In this document: in pieces, positions 6,010 to 21,427 of the stretch
How positions within the stretch are numbered: position 1 is the stretch's first letter
Layout of the letters: every line of letters begins with the position of its first letter
Origin: a virus
Virus record (IMG/VR): IMGVR_UViG_3300005253_000644
Span: 1-24,015 of that record
Reading direction: 5' to 3' (one strand)
DNA length: 24,015 bases
Notes under the pieces: generated by a model
What the model was told of the DNA's origin: nothing
Database searches by the model: none
The model's input: the letters and a program-made list of their open reading frames with translations, nothing else
Translations under genes and position numbers: made by a program

Positions 6010-6891
6010 TTACTTTAACCGTTTTCCTATAGGGTTTTTGCCCTTTTCCTTCTCATAGAAGGGTATTCCACCAATCGCCTTACTCTTCATCTCAGTCTCA
6101 GCTGCTTCCAGTTTCATTCTCATCATCGCCTCATGCCTCTTCATCTCCTCAGGCGTGAGTACCACCATCCCCCCACCCTTCTTTGCCCTTGCATTAACCA
6201 TCCCCATCTGCACCCAAAGGGGTTGGTTCTCCCTTGTCACTCCCCTATGGTTGAGCCAAACGTCGAAGTGAGCATAATAGTCCATTTTCTTGTCAAGCAC
6301 TCTATCAGCAAACCAACTATCAGTGGGTGCTTGATTATCAGAGGAGAACCAGGGCTTTTTTAGGTTCTTAAATACTGACGTCTTTATCATTGTGAAACAG
6401 AATGGAACAAGGTCAACTTTTACAACTCCCTTTCTCTGTTCGGGAGGCACCTCATATAAGCGTGCTGGACCCTTCAAAATAGGTTGGTCTGCTACCTTAG
6501 TTTTAGCATCATACCTTCTAAATGCACACATTGAATAGGGGAAGCCACTTGCGTGCATTATGCCCGCTACCACATCCCTATCCGCATCCAACAGCTTCAA
6601 AAAGTCATCCACCGTTACATCATAAATGTCGTCATCCATCAGCAATAAGTGTGTGCACCCACTGGCAACAGCCATATCTGCAAGCTGTTCCTCCGCTTTA
6701 TGAACGGGCATTCTATACATAAATCTATATCCTACATGGAATTTCCTCCCCTTATGTTTATAGGTCATTAGTGCTGACCAAAAATTGAGGAAGCTCTCTG
6801 CAAATTCGTGAGTCCATGCAAGTATAGGAACACCTATCAATATCTTTGGAACCTCAACCTCTTTCGCCTTACTTCTTGGTTTTTTCGCCAC
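6010..6891 (-). CDS. GT-A (family 2-like) glycosyltransferase
   Basis: 293 residues from the GTG at 6891, chosen because AGGAGGT lies seven bases upstream. The frame is open to 6990 but the extension overlaps the YkgJ gene. A Rossmann-like start, KILIGVPILAWTHEF, is followed by THLLLMDDDIYD with the DDD triad near residues 86-88, the metal and nucleotide-sugar site of GT-A enzymes. A later DVWLNHRG supplies a plausible metal-binding histidine. The C-terminal 50 residues are helical and basic. It would transfer a sugar from an NDP-sugar in the host cytoplasm. Its position among head genes suggests glycosylation of a virion protein, but lipopolysaccharide modification is also possible. It overlaps the upstream gene by 23 bases. 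Confidence 0.82.
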   Translation of the reverse strand: MAKKPRSKAKEVEVPKILIGVPILAWTHEFAESFLNFWSALMTYKHKGRKFHVGYRFMYRMPVHKAEEQLADMAVASGCTHLLLMDDDIYDVTVDDFLKLLDADRDVVAGIMHASGFPYSMCAFRRYDAKTKVADQPILKGPARLYEVPPEQRKGVVKVDLVPFCFTMIKTSVFKNLKKPWFSSDNQAPTDSWFADRVLDKKMDYYAHFDVWLNHRGVTRENQPLWVQMGMVNARAKKGGGMVVLTPEEMKRHEAMMRMKLEAAETEMKSKAIGGIPFYEKEKGKNPIGKRLK

Positions 6892-7174
6892 GCCTATACC
6901 TCCTACAATAATGTTGTTTGCAACGCATAGGTCTAATCTTATACATTCTGCATCGCTTGCTTTTATCATCAAATGCCTGGCACTCGCCATACACCTTTGC
7001 CGAAACCGCTGAAATGCTTTTATAGCTTACTTCAAACGCACTACCAACAGATGATAGAATGTTCAGTGCTGTCCTACCTGTTCCAGGGTCCTCTGGGGAC
7101 AAAAACATTTCAAACTCGTTACAGCAATCGCCACACTTTTTGCACACATAACTCGCCGCAATTTTCTTCGCCAT
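6869..7174 (-). CDS. YkgJ-family cysteine-cluster protein
   Basis: 101 residues. The signature CKKCGDCC (about 11-18), then CQAFDD-KSKRC, then KIRPMRCKQHYC matches the YkgJ/CxxCxxCC family (PF03692), whose members are predicted to chelate zinc or an iron-sulfur cluster. The spacing of eight cysteines plus the RP-x-x-C turn is intact, so the fold is probably functional. The biochemical role of the family is poorly defined. It is coupled to the glycosyltransferase by a 23-base overlap and sits among virion genes, which hints at a modification pair. AGAGGG precedes the ATG. Confidence 0.85.
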   Translation of the reverse strand: MAKKIAASYVCKKCGDCCNEFEMFLSPEDPGTGRTALNILSSVGSAFEVSYKSISAVSAKVYGECQAFDDKSKRCRMYKIRPMRCKQHYCRRYRRGEKTKK

Positions 7175-7192
7175 AATTCCCTCTAAGCAATC

Positions 7193-7218
7193 TGGTGGGG
7201 ACTTCTACATCCCCACCA
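7193..7218. other. Strong GC-rich hairpin between capsid-module genes
   Basis: TGGTGGGGA (7193-7201) and TCCCCACCA (7210-7218) form a perfect nine-base stem with an eight-base loop, in the 58 bases between the decoration-like gene and the YkgJ gene. No T tract follows on the minus strand, so it is not a clear intrinsic terminator. mRNA protection or a processing site is possible. Confidence 0.7.
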
Positions 7219-7232
7219 ATATGCTTTCTAAC

Positions 7233-8000
7233 CTAAGGTGCAATTGTCAAGAACATAACTCCATACTCAGATGCAGTTGCATCCATCATCATATGACCTA
7301 TGATTGGGTATGCCGTACCAGACGACTTGTTGTCAAAAGCAATGGCCTGACCAGTTACGTCAGTGACCATTAAATCGCCCTTTGTTGCTGCAGCACACTT
7401 AACATTACATGGGCCCCATGTTTGAAGCCAATAGTAATCGGCCGTTGTCAGTGCTATAGGGGAAACCCCTACAGGTAGGGTGTTGTTTCCCGTTGTAGCC
7501 TCAATTGTGTTTAAATATTGGTTCTGCTGAATCGCATACTGAGCAGCAGATTCCTCATCAACCACAATTGGATCATACAGAATAAGCGTTCCAACAGTGG
7601 TTTTTGCAATAGCAGCGTGAGACTTAATTCTGTAAAAATGCCCAGCGGTTACTACATTCAGATATCCTTCCGCATAGGTATCTTTGGCTATTGCTGTTGC
7701 TGCATAGAAGGTGAATGTTTTGCCCCCTGATGCATTTGTTCCACCACCAGTTGCTTCCAAGAACTCGCTCTGATTTTCTACAATATCACCAGCGCCAATA
7801 GCTGTAGCACCAGTGAAACACTTTGCGTAGCTGAATACTCTATCGCCTACCACCTTCCTAGAACCCAATTGTGCGAGCTGGATGCTAGAGGACTTATAGA
7901 TGGACTGTCCACCTTGAGGGACACTTACCTGATCCCCTCTCCAGTTGACCTTACCTGAGTCATCCACAGCCCCACTATTCCTTTGTGTAATGTCCGCCAT
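7233..8000 (-). CDS. Capsid decoration or structural protein downstream of the capsid gene
   Basis: 255 residues; GAAGGAGG precedes the ATG. The sequence is Ala/Gly/Thr-rich with beta-strand patterns (FTFYAATAIAKDTYAEGYLNV, YRIKSHAAI, LILYDPIVVD) and a conserved-looking WLQTWGPCNVKC. There are no enzyme motifs. Genes of this size and composition directly after the major capsid gene usually encode head decoration or minor head proteins. That is the inference here. The length exceeds the typical 110-130 residues of small decoration proteins, so it may have two domains. A strong hairpin follows its stop. Confidence 0.65.
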   Translation of the reverse strand: MADITQRNSGAVDDSGKVNWRGDQVSVPQGGQSIYKSSSIQLAQLGSRKVVGDRVFSYAKCFTGATAIGAGDIVENQSEFLEATGGGTNASGGKTFTFYAATAIAKDTYAEGYLNVVTAGHFYRIKSHAAIAKTTVGTLILYDPIVVDEESAAQYAIQQNQYLNTIEATTGNNTLPVGVSPIALTTADYYWLQTWGPCNVKCAAATKGDLMVTDVTGQAIAFDNKSSGTAYPIIGHMMMDATASEYGVMFLTIAP

Positions 8001-10082: not shown

Positions 10083-10316
10083 TCATATATCTAGGGGCTT
10101 TTTAACATCATCCCTCAGCACAAGCCCCCTCTTATCTAATTCCCTTTTAAGCTCCTCTTTATCCCTCACCTTCACTGGCTTATCCCCAAGTCCCCAGTGC
10201 CATCCACTATAGTCCTTACTCTTTCTCTCAACATGCCTTTCCCTCACTTCTTTATGCTTACCCCTATCTGCGAGCCAATTATCATAGTCATAATTATCTA
10301 GGCCATATTTCCCCAC
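10083..10316 (-). CDS. Small portal-coupled protein, unknown
   Basis: 77 residues from a GTG at 10316 that overlaps the portal stop as TAGTG, with only a weak AGGA upstream, so it probably depends on translational coupling. The N-terminus is rich in Tyr, Asp and Trp (YGLDNYDYDNWLADRG). Residues 37-70 (SGWHWGLGDKPVKVRDKEEL) resemble a short segment often seen in proteins encoded next to phage portals, ending in a helix with KRELDKRGLV. No metal site or membrane segment is visible. A head-assembly role is inferred from position. Confidence 0.68.
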   Translation of the reverse strand: MGKYGLDNYDYDNWLADRGKHKEVRERHVERKSKDYSGWHWGLGDKPVKVRDKEELKRELDKRGLVLRDDVKKPLDI

Positions 10317-12040
10317 TATACTAGTCCTGGGAACCTGCTTGCCCCAGGTCCTCCCTGACCCATGCCTGCAAACTCCTGAAATCCTATTGGCTGTTCGGGA
10401 CTATTACCTTTACCTGGCCGAGGGAATAACTGCTTCGGGTCTATCCAATCAAAATGGGATGCATAGGACTCAAGAAGATATTGCATGTTCATTCCTGGGA
10501 TCTTTGCCGCAAGTTCCATAAATTTCTCTGCCTCAGTCTTTTGGGTCATCTTGTTCTCAGGAATCGATTCCTCGGGACTCACTTTAAACTCAAACTCACC
10601 TTTTATCTGTTTTCCAGTAAATCTGACCCAATGCCTAGCACCATCTTGACCAATAACGTCAATCACCTTTTCCGTAGACCAATTGGCGAATATCAGTTGA
10701 TTCCATGCCCTCACTACTGATGACAACATGTCAGCCATCGTATCTCTCCGCTCGTCTACTCTTATCTGAGAAGCAGCCCTTACAATCTCTGCTTCGTGGG
10801 CAGTTCTCCTACCCCCAGGGGCTTCAAAGGCACCGAGTTGGTTCCTGGAAAATCCAATTATCTCCCTCATGTCCTCACGTGTTTCCCTTGCCGAAGCATA
10901 TAGGTCAGGTGGTACGTGGCTTTGAAATAGGGTAACAGCTTTCCTTATGTCCATGTGCTGACCTGAATCTACTGCAACTGCTGCTTTCACGTCTGGGTCA
11001 AGTAACTTGGATAGCTCGTCTTTCCCTAAAACGCCCTTATCATATAATATCTTAATAAGGCCTGCCCTTCTGTGCTTCGCAGCCATTGTTCTAATGTCGT
11101 TTATTTCCAATTGCTGGGGTTCGATGTATTTGGCATCGGGCGTCCACCAGAAGAAATCGGGGTCTTCGTTAAAGCCTAGAACACGGGCTGGGAGGCCCTC
11201 CATCTGCAAGTAGTCAAAATCATTACGCAGGAACTTGTCATGATCCAATGAGAGAACGAATACCCTACCTGAACGTTGATCATGGATTTGCCACAATTCC
11301 ACCCAATTCATATCTTCTGTTTCTTGAAACTTCTGTATCTCCCTATCAGCCTGAGGGGTTTGTTCAGGTCTTACCAAGTTGCTTGTGTATACTCCTTTCA
11401 AGCCCTTTTTGCCCGCACTTGGATACTTAGGGTCTTCTATTATGTCTTTAATGGGGCGCATCTTACGAAAGGCAAACCATTGGGCTTCGTTCCATCTCTG
11501 TGTCCCCCATGGGACTATGAAATCCTCTGGATTGCACCTGATGAACCAAGGCATTCCAGGTTTAACATTATAATTGTATTCTATCCGTTCCCCCTTTTTG
11601 TTGAAGGAGGTGAGGGAGCTATCTTCAAACTCATCCGATGCAAATTCGGGCTTATAACCATATTCCGTGTCATATCCAATAATCCCTGGACCCCTACCGC
11701 AAAGGAAACTATCCAGTGCCATCGACTTCATCTGTTCCTTCAGCCCAAGCTCCCTTATGAGTTGATTATCTATTCTCTCCACCACTCGCGCTTGCATTGT
11801 GAGGCCTGGTTTCATCCCAGTCACTAATACTCTGGGGTTGCGGAAGTATATCTGAGGTATCATTGCCCGTGCATATGAGTACATTATATTAACATATATC
11901 TGGTTTTTCTGATAAAAGGTACCCCTATAATAGTTCTTAAAGCGTCTCCAATCCTTGGATTTCCCAAATACAGACCTATATCTAATCCCTTTCTTTATTT
12001 GGTCCTTCCAATGATCCAACGGCTTCTGTTTTTCTGGCAC
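10316..12040 (-). CDS. Portal protein
   Basis: 574 residues from a GTG at 12040, with AAGGGG upstream. It follows the large terminase and precedes the scaffold and capsid genes, the canonical portal position. Visible portal-like parts are the N-terminal helical region (WRRFKNYYRGTFYQKNQIYVN), the clip/wing beta region with PWFIRCNPEDFIVPWGT, and the long stem helices around 355-450 (MDIRKAVTLFQSHVPPDLY, then REDMREIIGFSRNQLGAF). Twelve copies would form the DNA entry ring at one capsid vertex and dock the terminase. The C-terminus is Gly/Pro-rich and flexible. Length is within the normal range for portals. Confidence 0.85.
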   Translation of the reverse strand: MPEKQKPLDHWKDQIKKGIRYRSVFGKSKDWRRFKNYYRGTFYQKNQIYVNIMYSYARAMIPQIYFRNPRVLVTGMKPGLTMQARVVERIDNQLIRELGLKEQMKSMALDSFLCGRGPGIIGYDTEYGYKPEFASDEFEDSSLTSFNKKGERIEYNYNVKPGMPWFIRCNPEDFIVPWGTQRWNEAQWFAFRKMRPIKDIIEDPKYPSAGKKGLKGVYTSNLVRPEQTPQADREIQKFQETEDMNWVELWQIHDQRSGRVFVLSLDHDKFLRNDFDYLQMEGLPARVLGFNEDPDFFWWTPDAKYIEPQQLEINDIRTMAAKHRRAGLIKILYDKGVLGKDELSKLLDPDVKAAVAVDSGQHMDIRKAVTLFQSHVPPDLYASARETREDMREIIGFSRNQLGAFEAPGGRRTAHEAEIVRAASQIRVDERRDTMADMLSSVVRAWNQLIFANWSTEKVIDVIGQDGARHWVRFTGKQIKGEFEFKVSPEESIPENKMTQKTEAEKFMELAAKIPGMNMQYLLESYASHFDWIDPKQLFPRPGKGNSPEQPIGFQEFAGMGQGGPGASRFPGLV

Positions 12041-12164: not shown

Positions 12165-12187
12165 GTAAGTTCAATAATTAAACTTAC
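12165..12187. repeat. Dispersed AT-rich palindrome, copy B
   Basis: This is the most symmetrical copy: GTAAGTT and AACTTAC arms with one mismatch in 11 pairs around the centre at 12176 (core GTTCAATAATTAAAC). It contains the stop codon of the large terminase (12184-12186), just as copy A contains the LamG stop. Confidence 0.8.
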
Positions 12188-13836
12188 GCCCAGTCTGCAA
12201 CTGGTTCAAGATCTTCATTCGTGAAGTTGTCCCCACTCTCCTCTGGCATATATTGGTCAAGAAACCCCTTACCCTTTTTGCCCTCCATCGCCCACTTCAG
12301 GAACTTATCCATATCAGCCCTAAACACATACTCCTCTTTGCCCTTTCGAACTATAGCCCTGGGTTCCCCTGGCCTCGCTATTTGCAATTGGTATGCAGCA
12401 GCATCAAGCATATCATTCCTAACCGACCTATCATTAGGCACGTAGTTGCAGAACTCATCTATGAAGTCCTTGTGTTCTGGTCTACAATGGATTGCCATGT
12501 TGGATGCAATAGGTTGCAATGCCCTTATACGGAGGTCTTTTGAAACTGAGCTCTCTGTTCGCAGAGGTGCCATATGCAACCAACCCCTATTTTCCATCTC
12601 TTTCCTTAGGAAGTGTAATAGGGCTTTTTGGTAGTAGACTGTTTCAACACCAATCTTTTCGGGCTCATATATTCTATTATGTTTATATATGATATCTATG
12701 ACCTCACTTGGATTGAACCTTCCCACATCGTATCCAAGTACCCACATATGATTCCTGTCACACCATCCACAGGTGATTATAACAGCCCTTGAACCGTAGT
12801 TTTTCCTCTTACTCTCATTCCACCCAGCAAGGTCCACCGTGGTGAATACTCTCATGGATTCGGGCAGTTCGCCCTGACCCACATAATATTGTAACCACTC
12901 AGGTTTGAACAGCATATCCTCAATCGCCATAGGTCTATTCAAGTACTGTGTCGCAAACATATATGGACCTTGACTTGACCTAATCCTATCCAGCACCTCA
13001 CGCCCATACTGCTCTGGCCAAGTGGGTTTCCCATCTATAGTCCCATCATCTGTTGCTGATATATCCAGCACCTTATACTGCTTTTCATGAGTGCGTATGT
13101 GGTCCACTACATCATGCCTCGCCCACCTAGTTCCAATATTATGTATGCGTGTATGTGGACCAGGCACTAATAGGGAAGAAGCAAGTTTGTGCCACCCTAT
13201 TGCCTTGTCTATATCATCCTGGTTGGGCTGAAGTTCCTTCCCCGTGAGGTCGTCTTTCTTTGCATATATGATGTCATCTTCTATAATAAGGTCGTAGTGA
13301 CGAGACACCGTGGAGCCCCCAATACTACCAGCCTCAAATGTGCTTTCGGTGTAATCCTCACTCCTACTAATACATGCTTCTGAGTCACTCCATTTAACTT
13401 TGTTGAAGTTGGGAGGTATGACCTCAGGGAACAATGCTTGTAGGGATCTATTCCTCTCATATATTTTTCTAATTAAGTTTATAATCTTATGCGCATTAGC
13501 TACGACGTTAGATACTATTAGAATTCGGGCATTTTGCCCTAGCCCATAAAACTTATCATCCATCCCAATCCCCTCAGGGAATTCATCCCCCCGTTCTCTA
13601 GGCAATGTAACCCACACGGAAAATGCAATAGAGCCTATCCAGGTTTTAACAAACCCTCTTGGTAATGTCAGTTGTTTCCACCTATCTGGTTCTTCAAGGA
13701 ACCTGCAAACGCCCTTATGCAAACCCTCAGTGAGGTCATCATAGCCCATAACTGCGATGCAGAAGTTAAACAGGCTACTCAGACATCTCCTGCGTAATTC
13801 TAAGCGTGCTGATTCCTTCAATCTCGTTAGGTCCAT
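12184..13836 (-). CDS. terL: Terminase large subunit
   Basis: 550 residues. The ATPase domain shows a variant Walker A, LPRGFVKTW (58-66), a Walker B with LIIEDD (183-188), and a GTRW coupling-like motif near 235-238. The RNase H-fold nuclease supplies FTTVDLAG (Asp 335), IGVETV (Glu 398) and RNDMLDAA (Asp 475). Together these cut concatemeric DNA and power packaging through the portal. The Walker A has Val where relatives often have Gly or another small residue. The start at 13836 lies 62 bases inside the small-subunit gene and has a poor ribosome site, so translation may depend on coupling. Confidence 0.93.
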   Translation of the reverse strand: MDLTRLKESARLELRRRCLSSLFNFCIAVMGYDDLTEGLHKGVCRFLEEPDRWKQLTLPRGFVKTWIGSIAFSVWVTLPRERGDEFPEGIGMDDKFYGLGQNARILIVSNVVANAHKIINLIRKIYERNRSLQALFPEVIPPNFNKVKWSDSEACISRSEDYTESTFEAGSIGGSTVSRHYDLIIEDDIIYAKKDDLTGKELQPNQDDIDKAIGWHKLASSLLVPGPHTRIHNIGTRWARHDVVDHIRTHEKQYKVLDISATDDGTIDGKPTWPEQYGREVLDRIRSSQGPYMFATQYLNRPMAIEDMLFKPEWLQYYVGQGELPESMRVFTTVDLAGWNESKRKNYGSRAVIITCGWCDRNHMWVLGYDVGRFNPSEVIDIIYKHNRIYEPEKIGVETVYYQKALLHFLRKEMENRGWLHMAPLRTESSVSKDLRIRALQPIASNMAIHCRPEHKDFIDEFCNYVPNDRSVRNDMLDAAAYQLQIARPGEPRAIVRKGKEEYVFRADMDKFLKWAMEGKKGKGFLDQYMPEESGDNFTNEDLEPVADWA

Positions 13837-14308
13837 TGGATAACACCCTATCCCATCTATCAGATATTTTTCTATCTATTTCCACAATAGTTTTAGTCTT
13901 AGCTGGTTGCTTTGCATATCCAGCTCTATCAAGTATGTCTGAAGAAGCGGCATTTTTGACAAATGCATTCCCATTCACCAAGAGGTCTTTTTTGACATCA
14001 ATAGCTGTTCTTGCAAGGTCTTTTATCTCCTGTTCAATGGGGTCGCCCGCGGCAATTTTATCACTTTCATTGTCAACCACCTTTGCCCTCAACTCTGCCC
14101 ACTGTTTATCCCTTTGCACTTTATACAATGGACTATTAACTATAATGGACACCTGTGTATTAGTCATCCCTTCCAACTGCGCAATTCGCCCCTTCTTGTA
14201 TCCTGATATGTCATAAGCCAATATACGTTGAATACGAGTCGAATCCCTCTTAGGTTGCAAGTTTATGGTGTTGGGCGATTTCATGTGTTGTGGCACATAC
14301 TTTGGCAT
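13775..14308 (-). CDS. terS: Terminase small subunit candidate
   Basis: 177 residues from the ATG at 14308, selected because GTGGAGG lies six bases upstream. An in-frame GTG at 14320 overlaps that ribosome site. Residues about 28-60 (RILAYDISGYKKGRIAQLEGMTNTQVSIIVNSPLYKVQR) look like a helix-turn-helix DNA-recognition segment, as in small terminases that bind the pac or cos site. A long helical oligomerisation region (66-125) follows. It is the first gene of the virion module, directly upstream of and overlapping terL. The subunit identity is inferred from this order plus the domain pattern. Confidence 0.8.
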   Translation of the reverse strand: MPKYVPQHMKSPNTINLQPKRDSTRIQRILAYDISGYKKGRIAQLEGMTNTQVSIIVNSPLYKVQRDKQWAELRAKVVDNESDKIAAGDPIEQEIKDLARTAIDVKKDLLVNGNAFVKNAASSDILDRAGYAKQPAKTKTIVEIDRKISDRWDRVLSNGPNEIEGISTLRITQEMSE

Positions 14309-14338
14309 AATTGCCTCCACTTCAAATGGGAGTGAGAA

Positions 14339-14360
14339 AAGGTAGGTCTGTGCCTACCTT
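14339..14360 (-). promoter_or_regulatory. Leader hairpin upstream of the small terminase gene
   Basis: AAGGTAGG and CCTACCTT (14339-14346 and 14353-14360) form a perfect eight-base stem with a six-base loop, about 30 bases before the terS start. The minus-strand transcript would carry it in its 5-prime leader, followed by TTTTC. It may be an attenuator or a protein site. The ten bases GGTAGGTCTG recur exactly at 15475-15484. Confidence 0.6.
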
Positions 14361-14432
14361 GTAAGTTTAGTTCGGCGATTTCGGGCCGATTCCCCTAACC
14401 CCATATGATACAATATCTTGTGTCCAATATAA

Positions 14433-14461
14433 AGTATACACTATATCCGGTAGAAAGTCAA
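14433..14461 (-). promoter_or_regulatory. Sigma70-type promoter for the virion module
   Basis: On the minus strand TTGACT (14461-14456), a 17-base spacer, and TATACT (14438-14433) each match consensus at five of six positions. Transcription would start near 14426, giving a leader of about 118 bases before terS. The control region supplies no better candidate on this strand. Confidence 0.7.
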
Positions 14462-14769
14462 GTTTTTTCTTTAAACTTGCGCCAAAATCGCCCGAGGGTA
14501 TAAGCCCTAAGTCCTTTACCTATATGGATTTGTGAAAAACCCCAAAATTTATGTGAGTAATTTTGGAGGGTGTTATAAAATAACACATTCCGCATTGGGG
14601 GGCCCCCACCCCTACCTTTATTACAAAACACCACACCCATGTACACTCTCGGCGTGTATGTGCTGTGCAATATAGGGAATTTCGCCCAATCTTATAACGA
14701 CAAAGGGGGAATAAAAATATAACTCTATACATCATATGCACTTACAAGCACGCAACGCGCAAGTTTCCC

Positions 14770-17933: not shown

Positions 17934-18323
17934 ATGAAGCGAAATATGACAAAACAGGAAAAGCTTATATACTTAGCAGGCATTATAGATGGTGAGGGCT
18001 ATGTATCTATTCTAAAGAAATGTGATAGGGAAAGCCCTCGGTATCAATCATACGTTGCCGTATCTAATACACATCACGAGTTGATTAGATGGATTAACGA
18101 GGAATTTGGTGGCAGTGTCCACCATCAGCCCATCGAACAGCACAGAAAACCAGTAATGATGTGGACAATTTGTGCAAACCAAGCAGACGGTCTAATAAAA
18201 AAGGTTTATCCATACCTATTGGTCAAGCGAAAACAGGCGCAAACACTTTTCTTTTTTGAGTCGTTGAAAGATCGTGAAGGAGGAGAAAAGTTTTGGTTTG
18301 AAATGAAGGAGTTGCATAGATGA
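17934..18323 (+). CDS. LAGLIDADG-type homing endonuclease, single motif
   Basis: 129 residues; AAAGGTGG precedes the ATG. YLAGIIDGEGYVSI (13-26) is the LAGLIDADG helix with the catalytic acidic residue, followed by the strand-turn-strand pattern SYVAVSNTHHELIRWINEEFGG that contacts DNA. With one motif it would act as a homodimer cutting a near-palindromic site. It stands free, neither in an intron nor fused to another protein, and starts three bases after the preceding stop. It shares an ATGA overlap with the next gene, so it is well integrated into the operon. The likely role is its own spread into related genomes. Confidence 0.85.
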   Translation: MKRNMTKQEKLIYLAGIIDGEGYVSILKKCDRESPRYQSYVAVSNTHHELIRWINEEFGGSVHHQPIEQHRKPVMMWTICANQADGLIKKVYPYLLVKRKQAQTLFFFESLKDREGGEKFWFEMKELHR

Positions 18324-18706: not shown

Positions 18707-18710
18707 CAGA

Positions 18711-18845
18711 AAAGCTTTAGCTTTTCACCGAACTCACAGTCACCGAACTAAGGGGATTTAGGTATGTAGCTTTTCACCGAACACATAGTTGCCGAACACA
18801 TAGTCACCCAAACCTTTCTCGGGCTTTTTCCCACGAACACATAGG
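18711..18845 (+). repeat. Cluster of CCGAAC repeats, iteron-like
   Basis: CCGAAC occurs at 18728, 18743, 18777 and 18792, with degenerate copies ACCCAAAC near 18806 and CACGAAC near 18832. Three intervals are exactly 15 bases. Longer shared words are TAGCTTTTCACCGAAC (twice) and CGAACACATAG (three times). A GAAAAGC/GCTTTTC hairpin (18709-18726) leads the cluster. The block fills the whole gap between two genes and ends at the next ribosome site. Ordered short repeats of this sort bind replication initiators or repressors. Confidence 0.72.
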
Positions 18846-18852
18846 AGGAATA

Positions 18853-19245
18853 ATGATGAAAGAGAATAAAAGTTTCAGAATATGCTGGGGTCAGGGGTTT
18901 CATGTCACCTTTCCAAATCATGTTGTGTTGTCTACACAATTTGGAGCAGGTAATTATGGGGACCATTATGATGCTGCTATTGGGCGATTTCCAAAGTGCT
19001 GCAGCGATGGGGGGTATTCCATAATTGATGATTGTCAAGCTGACAAGGTGGAAATAGGAATATGGCTTGATGATGTTAAAGTTGAAGTGGAATTCTTTGG
19101 TAAGAAAAGCGAACAAAACAAATGGATTACTAAGGAAATGTATAAGGAAGTTTTTCCAGCCGAAGAACCTGATGATGTTATGGGTTATGTAGAGATTGAT
19201 AATTGGCTTAAAGTATTTAATTGGTGTCAGAATTATAAAGGTTAA
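18853..19245 (+). CDS. Unknown protein downstream of the repeat cluster
   Basis: 130 residues; AGGAGG lies four bases before the first ATG and seven before a second ATG at 18856, either of which could start. The N-terminal half is glycine/aromatic-rich (CWGQGFHVTFPNHVVLSTQF, then DHYDAAIGRFPKCC). The middle alternates strands (VEIGIWLDDVKVEVEFFG) and the C-terminus is helical (IDNWLKVFNWCQNYKG). Five cysteines, two adjacent, but no standard metal motif. It is followed by the candidate structured RNA. No family is recognised. Confidence 0.68.
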   Translation: MMKENKSFRICWGQGFHVTFPNHVVLSTQFGAGNYGDHYDAAIGRFPKCCSDGGYSIIDDCQADKVEIGIWLDDVKVEVEFFGKKSEQNKWITKEMYKEVFPAEEPDDVMGYVEIDNWLKVFNWCQNYKG

Positions 19246-19255
19246 ATATTTATAA

Positions 19256-19411
19256 ACTTGGTAGGTGGCGTTCAATGAAAACGCTGATAATGTCGGTAAA
19301 GATGTGTAAGGGCGACATAGTATAAGGCAAGTAATTGTGAGTGTTCCACTTCGATGAAAGCACGGCTCCCATAAGCACACTAAAGTAGGCGGAAGTCCTG
19401 CCCTACCAAGT
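19256..19411 (+). ncRNA. Candidate structured RNA closed by a ten-base stem
   Basis: ACTTGGTAGG (19256-19265) and CCTACCAAGT (19402-19411) are perfect complements 156 bases end to end. Inside are GCGTT/AACGC (19268-19272 with 19280-19284), ATGTCG/CGACAT (19290-19295 with 19313-19318) and AGTGT/ACACT (19340-19344 with 19377-19381). GTAGG at 19385-19389 can compete for the same CCTAC as the closing stem, so two folds are possible. The segment lies between genes, has no reading frame with a ribosome site, and ends 12 bases before the next ribosome site. I cannot match it to a known family. Confidence 0.62.
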
Positions 19412-19435
19412 CTATTATTAAACAGAGGGGGAAAA

Positions 19436-19786
19436 ATGAGTAAATATACAAAAGGACCGTGGAAAGTAGCAAATGAACATGACGGAGTACACGCTGGAAC
19501 ACATACGAGAATATATAACGATGATGGAATGTTTATTGCTAAAACAACTGTTCAAGACGGTAGAGGAAGAATGGAACGTAAACGAGTAGAAGCCAATGCC
19601 CAACTAATATCAGCTGCACCAGAGTTGTTGGAGGCGTGTAAAACTATGCTTGTTGCCACTGATTTTAATGCTCCTTTGCCAAAAGGACACTCAGGACAGG
19701 AAGCATATTTAAATGTAGTAGCCAAGCCCAGAGTTGAACAAGCCATAGCCAAAGCTGAAGGACTAAGTGAAAAGAGGGAAGGATGA
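19436..19786 (+). CDS. Small conserved-type phage protein, unknown
   Basis: 116 residues with GAGGGGG before the ATG. The body has MSKYTKGPWKVANEHDG and the ending ANAQLISAAPELLEACKTML, a pattern I recognise from short proteins widespread in phage early regions, where WK followed by ANAxLIAAAPELLEAL is a hallmark. The role of that family is unknown. It follows the candidate RNA by 24 bases, so the RNA could lie in its leader and affect its translation. It overlaps the next gene in an ATGA junction. Confidence 0.75.
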   Translation: MSKYTKGPWKVANEHDGVHAGTHTRIYNDDGMFIAKTTVQDGRGRMERKRVEANAQLISAAPELLEACKTMLVATDFNAPLPKGHSGQEAYLNVVAKPRVEQAIAKAEGLSEKREG

Positions 19787-20058
19787 AGAAGCCAGAAATA
19801 AAATATTGGACAGGAGAATGCGGGGGGCTTGAGAAATCAAGCGTTACCCGTAATAAAGCAATAGAAGAATATGAGGAGTATCATAACTATGTGTTGAGTA
19901 AGTTACCGACAGAAGAAGACTTAATGTGCATTATTACAAACAGCGAAATGTATGATACCATACAGAACAGGGAAACTTTAACTGTTGGTAGTAGTGTTGG
20001 TATGATAAATTTAGCCAAAGCTATCTATAAAAGACAGCAGAGCATTAAGGAGGAATAA
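19783..20058 (+). CDS. Small helical protein, unknown
   Basis: 91 residues; starts in an ATGA overlap with the previous gene, with GAGGGAAGG upstream. It is largely helical and acidic (NKAIEEYEEYHNYVLSKLPT, then GMINLAKAIYKRQQSIKEE), with two cysteines and no motif I recognise. Coupling to its neighbours supports it as a real gene. Function is unknown. Confidence 0.65.
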   Translation: MKKPEIKYWTGECGGLEKSSVTRNKAIEEYEEYHNYVLSKLPTEEDLMCIITNSEMYDTIQNRETLTVGSSVGMINLAKAIYKRQQSIKEE

Positions 20059-20060
20059 GT

Positions 20061-20357
20061 ATGGAAAGGGTAAAGTCAATGATGTATTCCACAGATAAGG
20101 ATTCAAAGTTTGCAAAGGACTCAACATATAAGATGAAAATCATGGGGTGTAGGAGGGTTATGAACTCGGATATGTTTGTGTCCGTTACCAAAGAGGGAAA
20201 TCATGTTGAAGTCACGGGTTTCACCTCAGGTGTTGGGGGGAGTGCACTCATGCTTCTTGCATTGATTAAACAGTTTAAAACCATAGCTGATGACTCGCCC
20301 ACTGCTGATACACTGATAGCACTGGGCGCACTTAAGACAGCACTGGGGAACTTATGA
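20061..20357 (+). CDS. Small protein with a Gly/Ala-rich helix, unknown
   Basis: 98 residues; AAGGAGG precedes the ATG. Residues 1-55 are a beta-prone domain (STYKMKIMGCRRVMNSDMFV). Residues 56-98 hold a hydrophobic Ser/Gly/Leu stretch (SGVGGSALMLLALIKQF) that could be a buried helix or a weak membrane segment, then a second helix. Its stop overlaps the radical SAM start as ATGA. Function is unknown. Confidence 0.65.
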   Translation: MERVKSMMYSTDKDSKFAKDSTYKMKIMGCRRVMNSDMFVSVTKEGNHVEVTGFTSGVGGSALMLLALIKQFKTIADDSPTADTLIALGALKTALGNL

Positions 20358-21427
20358 AGAAAGGACACTACTTATTTGATGGTAATAAGCTTCTATGGCA
20401 TATGGATAGGGTCCACGAACACTACAGGGGTAAGAAGAGAATTTATCCCCTCCATATAGATATAGGCGCCACTAAGGTCTGTAATGCCAAATGCACATAT
20501 TGTTACGGGCTTTTCCAGAAGATGACGGGCGAAATCATACCAGCTGACGTATTGGTTCAATTATTTAAGGATGCCCCAGACCTCGGCATCCGTTCCCTCA
20601 CACTCACGGGCGATGGGGAACCCACGCTTAATCCTGCCGTCTACCAAGCCATATATGAGGGTCACGCAAGGGGACTTGACATAGGGTTTGCAACCAACGG
20701 CATCTCACTCAATAAGGCACGCATTACAACTCTACTTGAGTCCTGCACTTGGCTTCGCTTCAACCTATCTGCGGTTGACAAAGGATCATATAAAACCATA
20801 CACGGTGTTGATCGGTGGGAGCGAGTGCAGGACAACATCATCACCACCACAAAGTTGAAGAAGAAGATTGGGAGTAAGTGTACAATAGGGTTGCAAATGG
20901 TTCTTATACCTGACTGTTTGGACCAAGTTTTGCCCGAGTACAAATTCGCCATAGCCCATGGACTTGACTACTTTGTTATTAAACAGTTTAGTGACCCAGA
21001 TTGTAAAGAGATGAGTCAGTTTGACCTGAGTTGGTATAATAATGTGGAAACGGAAGTTATACTTAAAATGGCCGAATTTGCCTCAACAGAACAGACGAAG
21101 ATTATACCTAAGTGGAATACTATTGCCAGTAAGGGTAAGAGGCCATATGACCACTGTGTTGATTGCCCCCTAATCTTTCAAATCAGTGGCAATTCTAAGT
21201 GTTACCCATGCGGTTTCTTGTTTAACAATGAAGAATACTGTTACGGTGATTTAAAGAAAAATACCCTTAAGGAAATTTTGGATTCAGAACATTACTGGTC
21301 TATAATTAGAAAAATGAGGTATGAGTTTGATGTCCACACCCAATGTGTTGGGTGTTGCAGACACGATTCAACAAATGCATTTGTTTGGAACTATTTGCAT
21401 GCACCAACACATTTGAGTTTCATATAG
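20354..21427 (+). CDS. Radical SAM enzyme with SPASM-like C-terminal cluster domain
   Basis: 357 residues. CNAKCTYC (43-50) is the CxxxCxxC motif that holds the 4Fe-4S cluster binding S-adenosylmethionine. LTLTGDGEPTLNP (82-94) fits the GGE-type loop, and a TIM-barrel pattern follows. The C-terminal domain places cysteines at 268, 271, 283, 286, 296, 331, 334 and 335, and YGDLKKNTLKEILDSEHYW is typical of SPASM auxiliary-cluster domains. Such enzymes make radical modifications of peptides, sugars or other small molecules. Start overlaps the previous stop as ATGA with GGGGAA upstream. The substrate cannot be read from sequence. Nearby genes include an E1-alpha-like enzyme. Confidence 0.9.
   Translation: MKKGHYLFDGNKLLWHMDRVHEHYRGKKRIYPLHIDIGATKVCNAKCTYCYGLFQKMTGEIIPADVLVQLFKDAPDLGIRSLTLTGDGEPTLNPAVYQAIYEGHARGLDIGFATNGISLNKARITTLLESCTWLRFNLSAVDKGSYKTIHGVDRWERVQDNIITTTKLKKKIGSKCTIGLQMVLIPDCLDQVLPEYKFAIAHGLDYFVIKQFSDPDCKEMSQFDLSWYNNVETEVILKMAEFASTEQTKIIPKWNTIASKGKRPYDHCVDCPLIFQISGNSKCYPCGFLFNNEEYCYGDLKKNTLKEILDSEHYWSIIRKMRYEFDVHTQCVGCCRHDSTNAFVWNYLHAPTHLSFI

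Follow-up and report, generated by a model that had tools for sequence, protein, structure and literature searches.

The presence of two exact ten-base complements at either end of a non-coding spacer between two small phage genes raises the question as to whether that spacer carries a structured RNA of its own. The spacer lies in a 24,015-base record of an uncultured virus, the whole of which was analysed and is referred to here as the window. An earlier note, made from the sequence alone, had taken the spacer to contain an undescribed phage RNA, with several local helices inside a closing stem and a possible switch between two folds, perhaps controlling the gene that begins at 19436. Our analysis indicates that the element is probably a real stem-bounded unit, either an orphan intercistronic RNA or a miniature inverted-repeat insertion. 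It would be premature to designate it a new functional RNA, because its interior is not specially folded and no relative of it was found.

The gap and its inverted repeat

The structural genes of this virus are on the minus strand, including those for the terminase large subunit (12184-13836) and the portal (10316-12040), while small genes are clustered on the plus strand from about 14868 onward. The gap that contains the element (Table 1) is conspicuous locally since the gene junctions further downstream in the plus cluster overlap or almost abut, yet several other gaps of the cluster are equally long or longer. For the ORF upstream of the gap neither Pfam nor PHROG gave a match at E 0.001, and the viral contigs yielded no relative. 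No tRNA or tmRNA gene was found in the window with ARAGORN.

The gap had been described as having no credible reading frame. On the minus strand a stop-free frame of 267 codons spans the gap, and the description stands only in so far as protein support for this frame is absent. In antisense orientation the frame (18751-19551) covers the 130-aa gene and the element as well as the first part of the 116-aa gene. No protein relative was found for its stretch over the gap when the frame served as a proxy protein in a degenerate scan of viral contigs and in tblastn, and the frame is probably a shadow of codon bias.

The ten-base arms are exactly complementary, as the earlier note had it, with 136 nt between them and an outer span of 156 nt. 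They form part of a longer inverted repeat of 19 nt and 84% identity (19247-19265 and 19402-19420) which nearly fills the gap, beginning two bases past the upstream stop codon and ending just short of the Shine-Dalgarno-like AGAGGGGG of the downstream gene. As plus-strand RNA the helix has 10 bp. As minus-strand RNA, a reading that had been overlooked, it runs to 14 continuous pairs (19252-19415, one of them G-U), the greater length being due to a plus-strand A-C mismatch that becomes G-U on the opposite strand.

Table 1 Coordinates of the stem-bounded element, its parts and its flanking genes
Feature	Position	Strand	Length	Remarks
Upstream neighbour, 130-aa ORF	18853-19245	+		Co-directional with the 116-aa ORF
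Intergenic gap with the element	19246-19435		190 nt	From the ORF list and the sequence
Stem-bounded element	19252-19415		164 nt	Helix of 14 bp as minus RNA, 10 bp as plus RNA
5' arm of perfect 10-bp closing stem, ACTTGGTAGG	19256-19265	+		Within 19-nt imperfect arm 19247-19265
Local hairpin GCGTT-7 nt-AACGC	19268-19284			In minus minimum-energy fold, absent from plus one
Local hairpin ATGTCG-17 nt-CGACAT	19290-19318			In minus minimum-energy fold, absent from plus one
Hairpin GUG-C-UUUCAU-CGAA-GUGGAA-CAC	19341-19363	-		9 pairs, in minus minimum-energy fold
GTAGG, proposed competitor of the closing stem	19385-19389	+		Predicted occupancy zero
3' arm of closing stem, CCTACCAAGT	19402-19411	+		Within 19-nt imperfect arm 19402-19420
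Shine-Dalgarno-like AGAGGGGG of the 116-aa ORF	19423-19430	+		
Downstream neighbour, 116-aa ORF	19436-19786	+		PHROG 1273 (unknown function)

Stem and interior against shuffled sequence

Taken over the whole window the closing stem is at chance level. Perfect ten-base inverted repeats with arms 20-300 nt apart number eight, against 6.4 +/- 2.7 in shuffled sequence, and a single helix was observed window-wide that scores at least as high as the 14-bp helix of the minus strand, against a mean of 0.9 per strand in eight shuffles. A different picture is obtained when the gap is considered by itself. In 20,000 dinucleotide shuffles of the gap a helix this strong stretched across at least 80% of it in 39 cases on the plus strand and in one case on the minus strand, corresponding to uncorrected p values of about 0.002 and 0.00005 respectively. 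A total of 16 gap-strand tests were made, and after correction for these the values are roughly 0.03 on the plus strand and 0.001 on the minus strand. The requirement of at least 80% of the gap was chosen after the stem had been seen, and the evidence for the stem is weaker than these figures suggest as the test was post hoc. None of the seven other gaps tested had a spanning helix with a score above 18, and the plus cluster has other gaps, of 117-377 nt, without a comparable stem. For the 19246-19435 gap, then, a stem reaching across it exceeds chance expectation, and this fit of the inverted repeat to the edges of the gap is the sole positive fact about the element.

The interior presents no such signal. 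Folded alone it gave z scores of +0.73 (plus) and -0.41 (minus) relative to shuffles, and with the closing stem held fixed +0.62 and -0.56, so the earlier observation of at least three further helices is uninformative, the interior folding no better than shuffled sequence on either strand. Two pairs of the 19341-19363 hairpin are G-U on the minus strand and would be A-C mismatches on the plus. The element as a whole reached a folding z of -3.5 (minus) and -1.4 (plus), values that come from the closing stem given that the interior contributes no signal. Control segments selected likewise, each framed on another stem of the window, ranged from +0.3 to -5.3, several of them at -3.2 to -5.3, and the region of the element was not prominent in a sliding-window folding scan. 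The thermodynamic mark of a structured RNA, folding beyond the closing stem that is clearly better than in dinucleotide shuffles, was not found.

Gene control and the search for relatives

The proposed switch relied on a second copy of the 5' stem bases, and this GTAGG is indeed present. The hairpin that it would form in competition with the closing stem has a predicted occupancy of zero, and forcing it costs 6.5 kcal/mol on the plus strand and 7.9 kcal/mol on the minus; the model does not support two alternating folds, and at most the hairpin could form transiently during transcription. Control of the 19436 gene likewise found no anatomical support. The Shine-Dalgarno bases (19424-19430) lie outside the closing stem, with unpaired probabilities of 69-85% in the predicted ensemble, and no terminator-like site was found at the element, so neither form of riboswitch expression platform, terminator or ribosome-site sequestration, was found for this gene. 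Promoter-like sites are about as frequent as in shuffled sequence (4 against 3.2). One of them, on the minus strand at 19472-19443, would be suitably placed for a minus-strand RNA but scores only 9/12.

A check against Rfam, as the earlier note had advised, gave no match for 19150-19500 on either strand even at E 10, and no known ribozyme core was found in that search; the whole window gave no match to Rfam 15 at gathering score. The note's statement that no reverse transcriptase or TnpB-like gene is in the window was borne out, RVT_1 (PF00078) being absent from what is possibly a fragmentary record and PF07282 being absent also. Nor did 30 sampled tnpB loci, compared together with their flanks, show any similarity.

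Sensitive blastn of the element against phage and plasmid records gave no match, and no second copy exists within the record. Viral contigs were scanned for patterns made from the closing stem, two internal segments and a 14-mer, and no homologue was found, the matches being chance ones in unrelated and mostly coding contexts. A loose pattern of stem plus gap matched at least 120 stretches of genome contigs, with no extended similarity among the matches listed. The element DNA was searched against a sample of about 760 bacterial genomes, which may not include the host, and no copy was found; the search of two phyla (753 genomes) returned eight weak matches, the rate expected for so many searches, and none of the eight covers the whole element. 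Covariance models built from the single sequence, for either strand, recovered only the window itself when run against its relatives. A faint hint of the 3' end of an insertion sequence led to a comparison of translated plus frames with plasmids, which gave nothing. Five sequence fragments were sought in about five million open papers, and none of them was found.

The gene neighbourhood of related phages gave the same result. The closest relative (L011), with a terminase 56% identical, retains equivalents of gene 18320 and of the radical-SAM gene 20354, and in the stretch between these two both the element and the genes on either side of it are missing. Relatives of the 116-aa gene (PHROG 1273) occur in five contigs (L002-L006), where the upstream sequence is different and the element absent. 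Absence from the collections searched is not proof of uniqueness, since these may omit records very close to the window.

It is very improbable, on these results, that the element belongs to one of the named classes that had been suggested: a riboswitch-like leader of the 19436 gene, a self-cleaving ribozyme, a retron RNA or a nuclease guide. Its position directly upstream of a gene and its stem-closed domain do resemble the anatomy of such RNAs. Against this are the lack of an Rfam match at E 10, the absence from the record of TnpB and reverse transcriptase domains and the lack of anything similar in the 30 tnpB loci, together with the exposed Shine-Dalgarno sequence, the missing terminator-like site and an unpopulated switch fold. 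The msr-msd RNA of retrons is enclosed by a closing repeat, a1/a2, and the element likewise has about 160 nt within a closing inverted repeat; unlike a retron, its record has no reverse transcriptase and its predicted folds contain no long hairpin of the msd type. The c4 antisense RNA and the manA and wcaG motifs are regulatory RNAs or cis elements of phages and prophages that were found by comparative genomics (PMC2864571). The element resembles them in being non-coding, phage-borne, organised by stems and located in a 5'-UTR or intergenic position; whereas each of those classes was established from numerous members showing conservation and covariation (PMC2864571), the element stands alone, neither a relative nor an Rfam match having been found.

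Competing readings and other features of the window

The reading that we tentatively prefer, with somewhat less than even confidence, is that of an intercistronic RNA domain, an orphan non-coding unit that is discrete, bounded by its stem and about 164-174 nt long. As the surrounding ORFs lie on the plus strand, the element would be read on that strand within a polycistronic mRNA, and the pairing of its ends would make it a separate domain of that mRNA, lying between the 130-aa gene and the 116-aa gene. The likeliest effect would be on mRNA processing, mRNA stability or the separation of cistrons; ligand sensing and occlusion of the ribosome site are less likely, because the downstream ribosome site remains open. 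A variant of this reading would have a small RNA made off the minus strand, where the helix is longest. We regard as quite improbable the further proposal of an undescribed phage RNA family of about 164 nt with a 14-bp stem, transcribed from the opposite strand or excised from the mRNA and acting in trans as a small RNA during infection. If the element is a functional RNA it adds to the uncharacterised non-coding RNAs of phages another that belongs to no known family.

Two other explanations dispense with an RNA function. The inverted repeat may be close to the two gap edges by chance, in an ordinary non-coding spacer or the remnant of a lost gene. This is somewhat unlikely in our estimation. 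In its favour are that eight ten-base inverted repeats were seen window-wide where about six are expected, that shuffling yields a stem to match the 14-bp one about once per strand, that the interior folds at shuffle level with no conservation found, and that gaps of 117-377 nt occur in the plus cluster without any such stem; what opposes it is the rarity of a gap-spanning helix in shuffles of the gap, with p of about 0.002 on the plus strand or 0.00005 on the minus strand before correction for 16 tests. Bacterial MITEs are short non-coding units bounded by inverted repeats and are foldable when transcribed, a description that the element fits in being short, non-coding, bounded by inverted repeats of 10-19 nt and foldable if transcribed. 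A MITE-like or decayed insertion between packed genes, in which the stem is a terminal inverted repeat and the RNA fold incidental, would account for terminal repeats (19-nt, 84%) flush with the edges of the gap and for an interior with no special fold, as expected of a terminal-repeat element. A 5-bp direct repeat, TTAAA, is also found on both sides (19242-19246 and 19418-19422), and joining the flanks at TTAAA would place a stop codon, a Shine-Dalgarno sequence and an ATG in a span of 20 nt, resembling the tight junctions further downstream. However, this direct repeat is equalled by 35% of flank shuffles and is not a significant target duplication, no second copy of the element exists in the record, and none was found in the phage and plasmid records or in the roughly 760 bacterial genomes sampled. 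We consider an insertion of this kind unlikely. The present value of the locus is mainly cautionary in that a long-range stem may look striking, yet equally strong ones arise about once per strand by chance in 24 kb, and the fit to the gap is the sole reason to keep the element listed.

Several other features of the window and of related phages were recorded in the course of the analysis. A segment at 14271-14495 on the plus strand, between the terminase small subunit gene and a 110-aa ORF, is framed by the closing stem TTGGGCGATTT / AAATCGCCCGA and has a folding z of -5.3, making it a statistically stronger structure candidate than the 19252-19415 element. The lowest sliding folding z of the window (-4.9, 30 shuffles) is at 19891-20055 on the plus strand, inside and at the end of a 91-aa ORF. 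The gap upstream of the 130-aa ORF (18707-18852) is filled by four or five imperfect copies of the short repeat CCGAACACATAG(T), a possible operator or iteron-like array. In L011 repeats of TTGAACTTA and GTTACAC, in either orientation, are scattered through a 1.5-kb AT-rich gap (6285-7816), possibly an origin or a regulator array, and in a gap of another related phage (L013) a perfect 17-bp inverted repeat, TAAGTCCTTTATTTATA, lies at 1647-1753, its arms enclosing 73 nt.

Among the plus-strand genes, a free-standing ORF of the LAGLIDADG homing-endonuclease type lies about 1 kb upstream of the element (17934-18323). It matches PHROG 5046, which is labelled HNH (E 2e-22), and a PADLOC homing endonuclease (E 9e-7), with a Pfam LAGLIDADG match only below the cut-off. 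The radical SAM/SPASM protein encoded at 20354-21427 is conserved in L011 and has a PADLOC match to prokaryotic viperins (E 9e-16), which may be explained by the broad radical SAM fold. The ORF at 21926-22597 matches a dehydrogenase E1 component of the thiamine-diphosphate type (E 4e-22), an unusual metabolic gene for a phage, and has a counterpart in L011 at 184-807.
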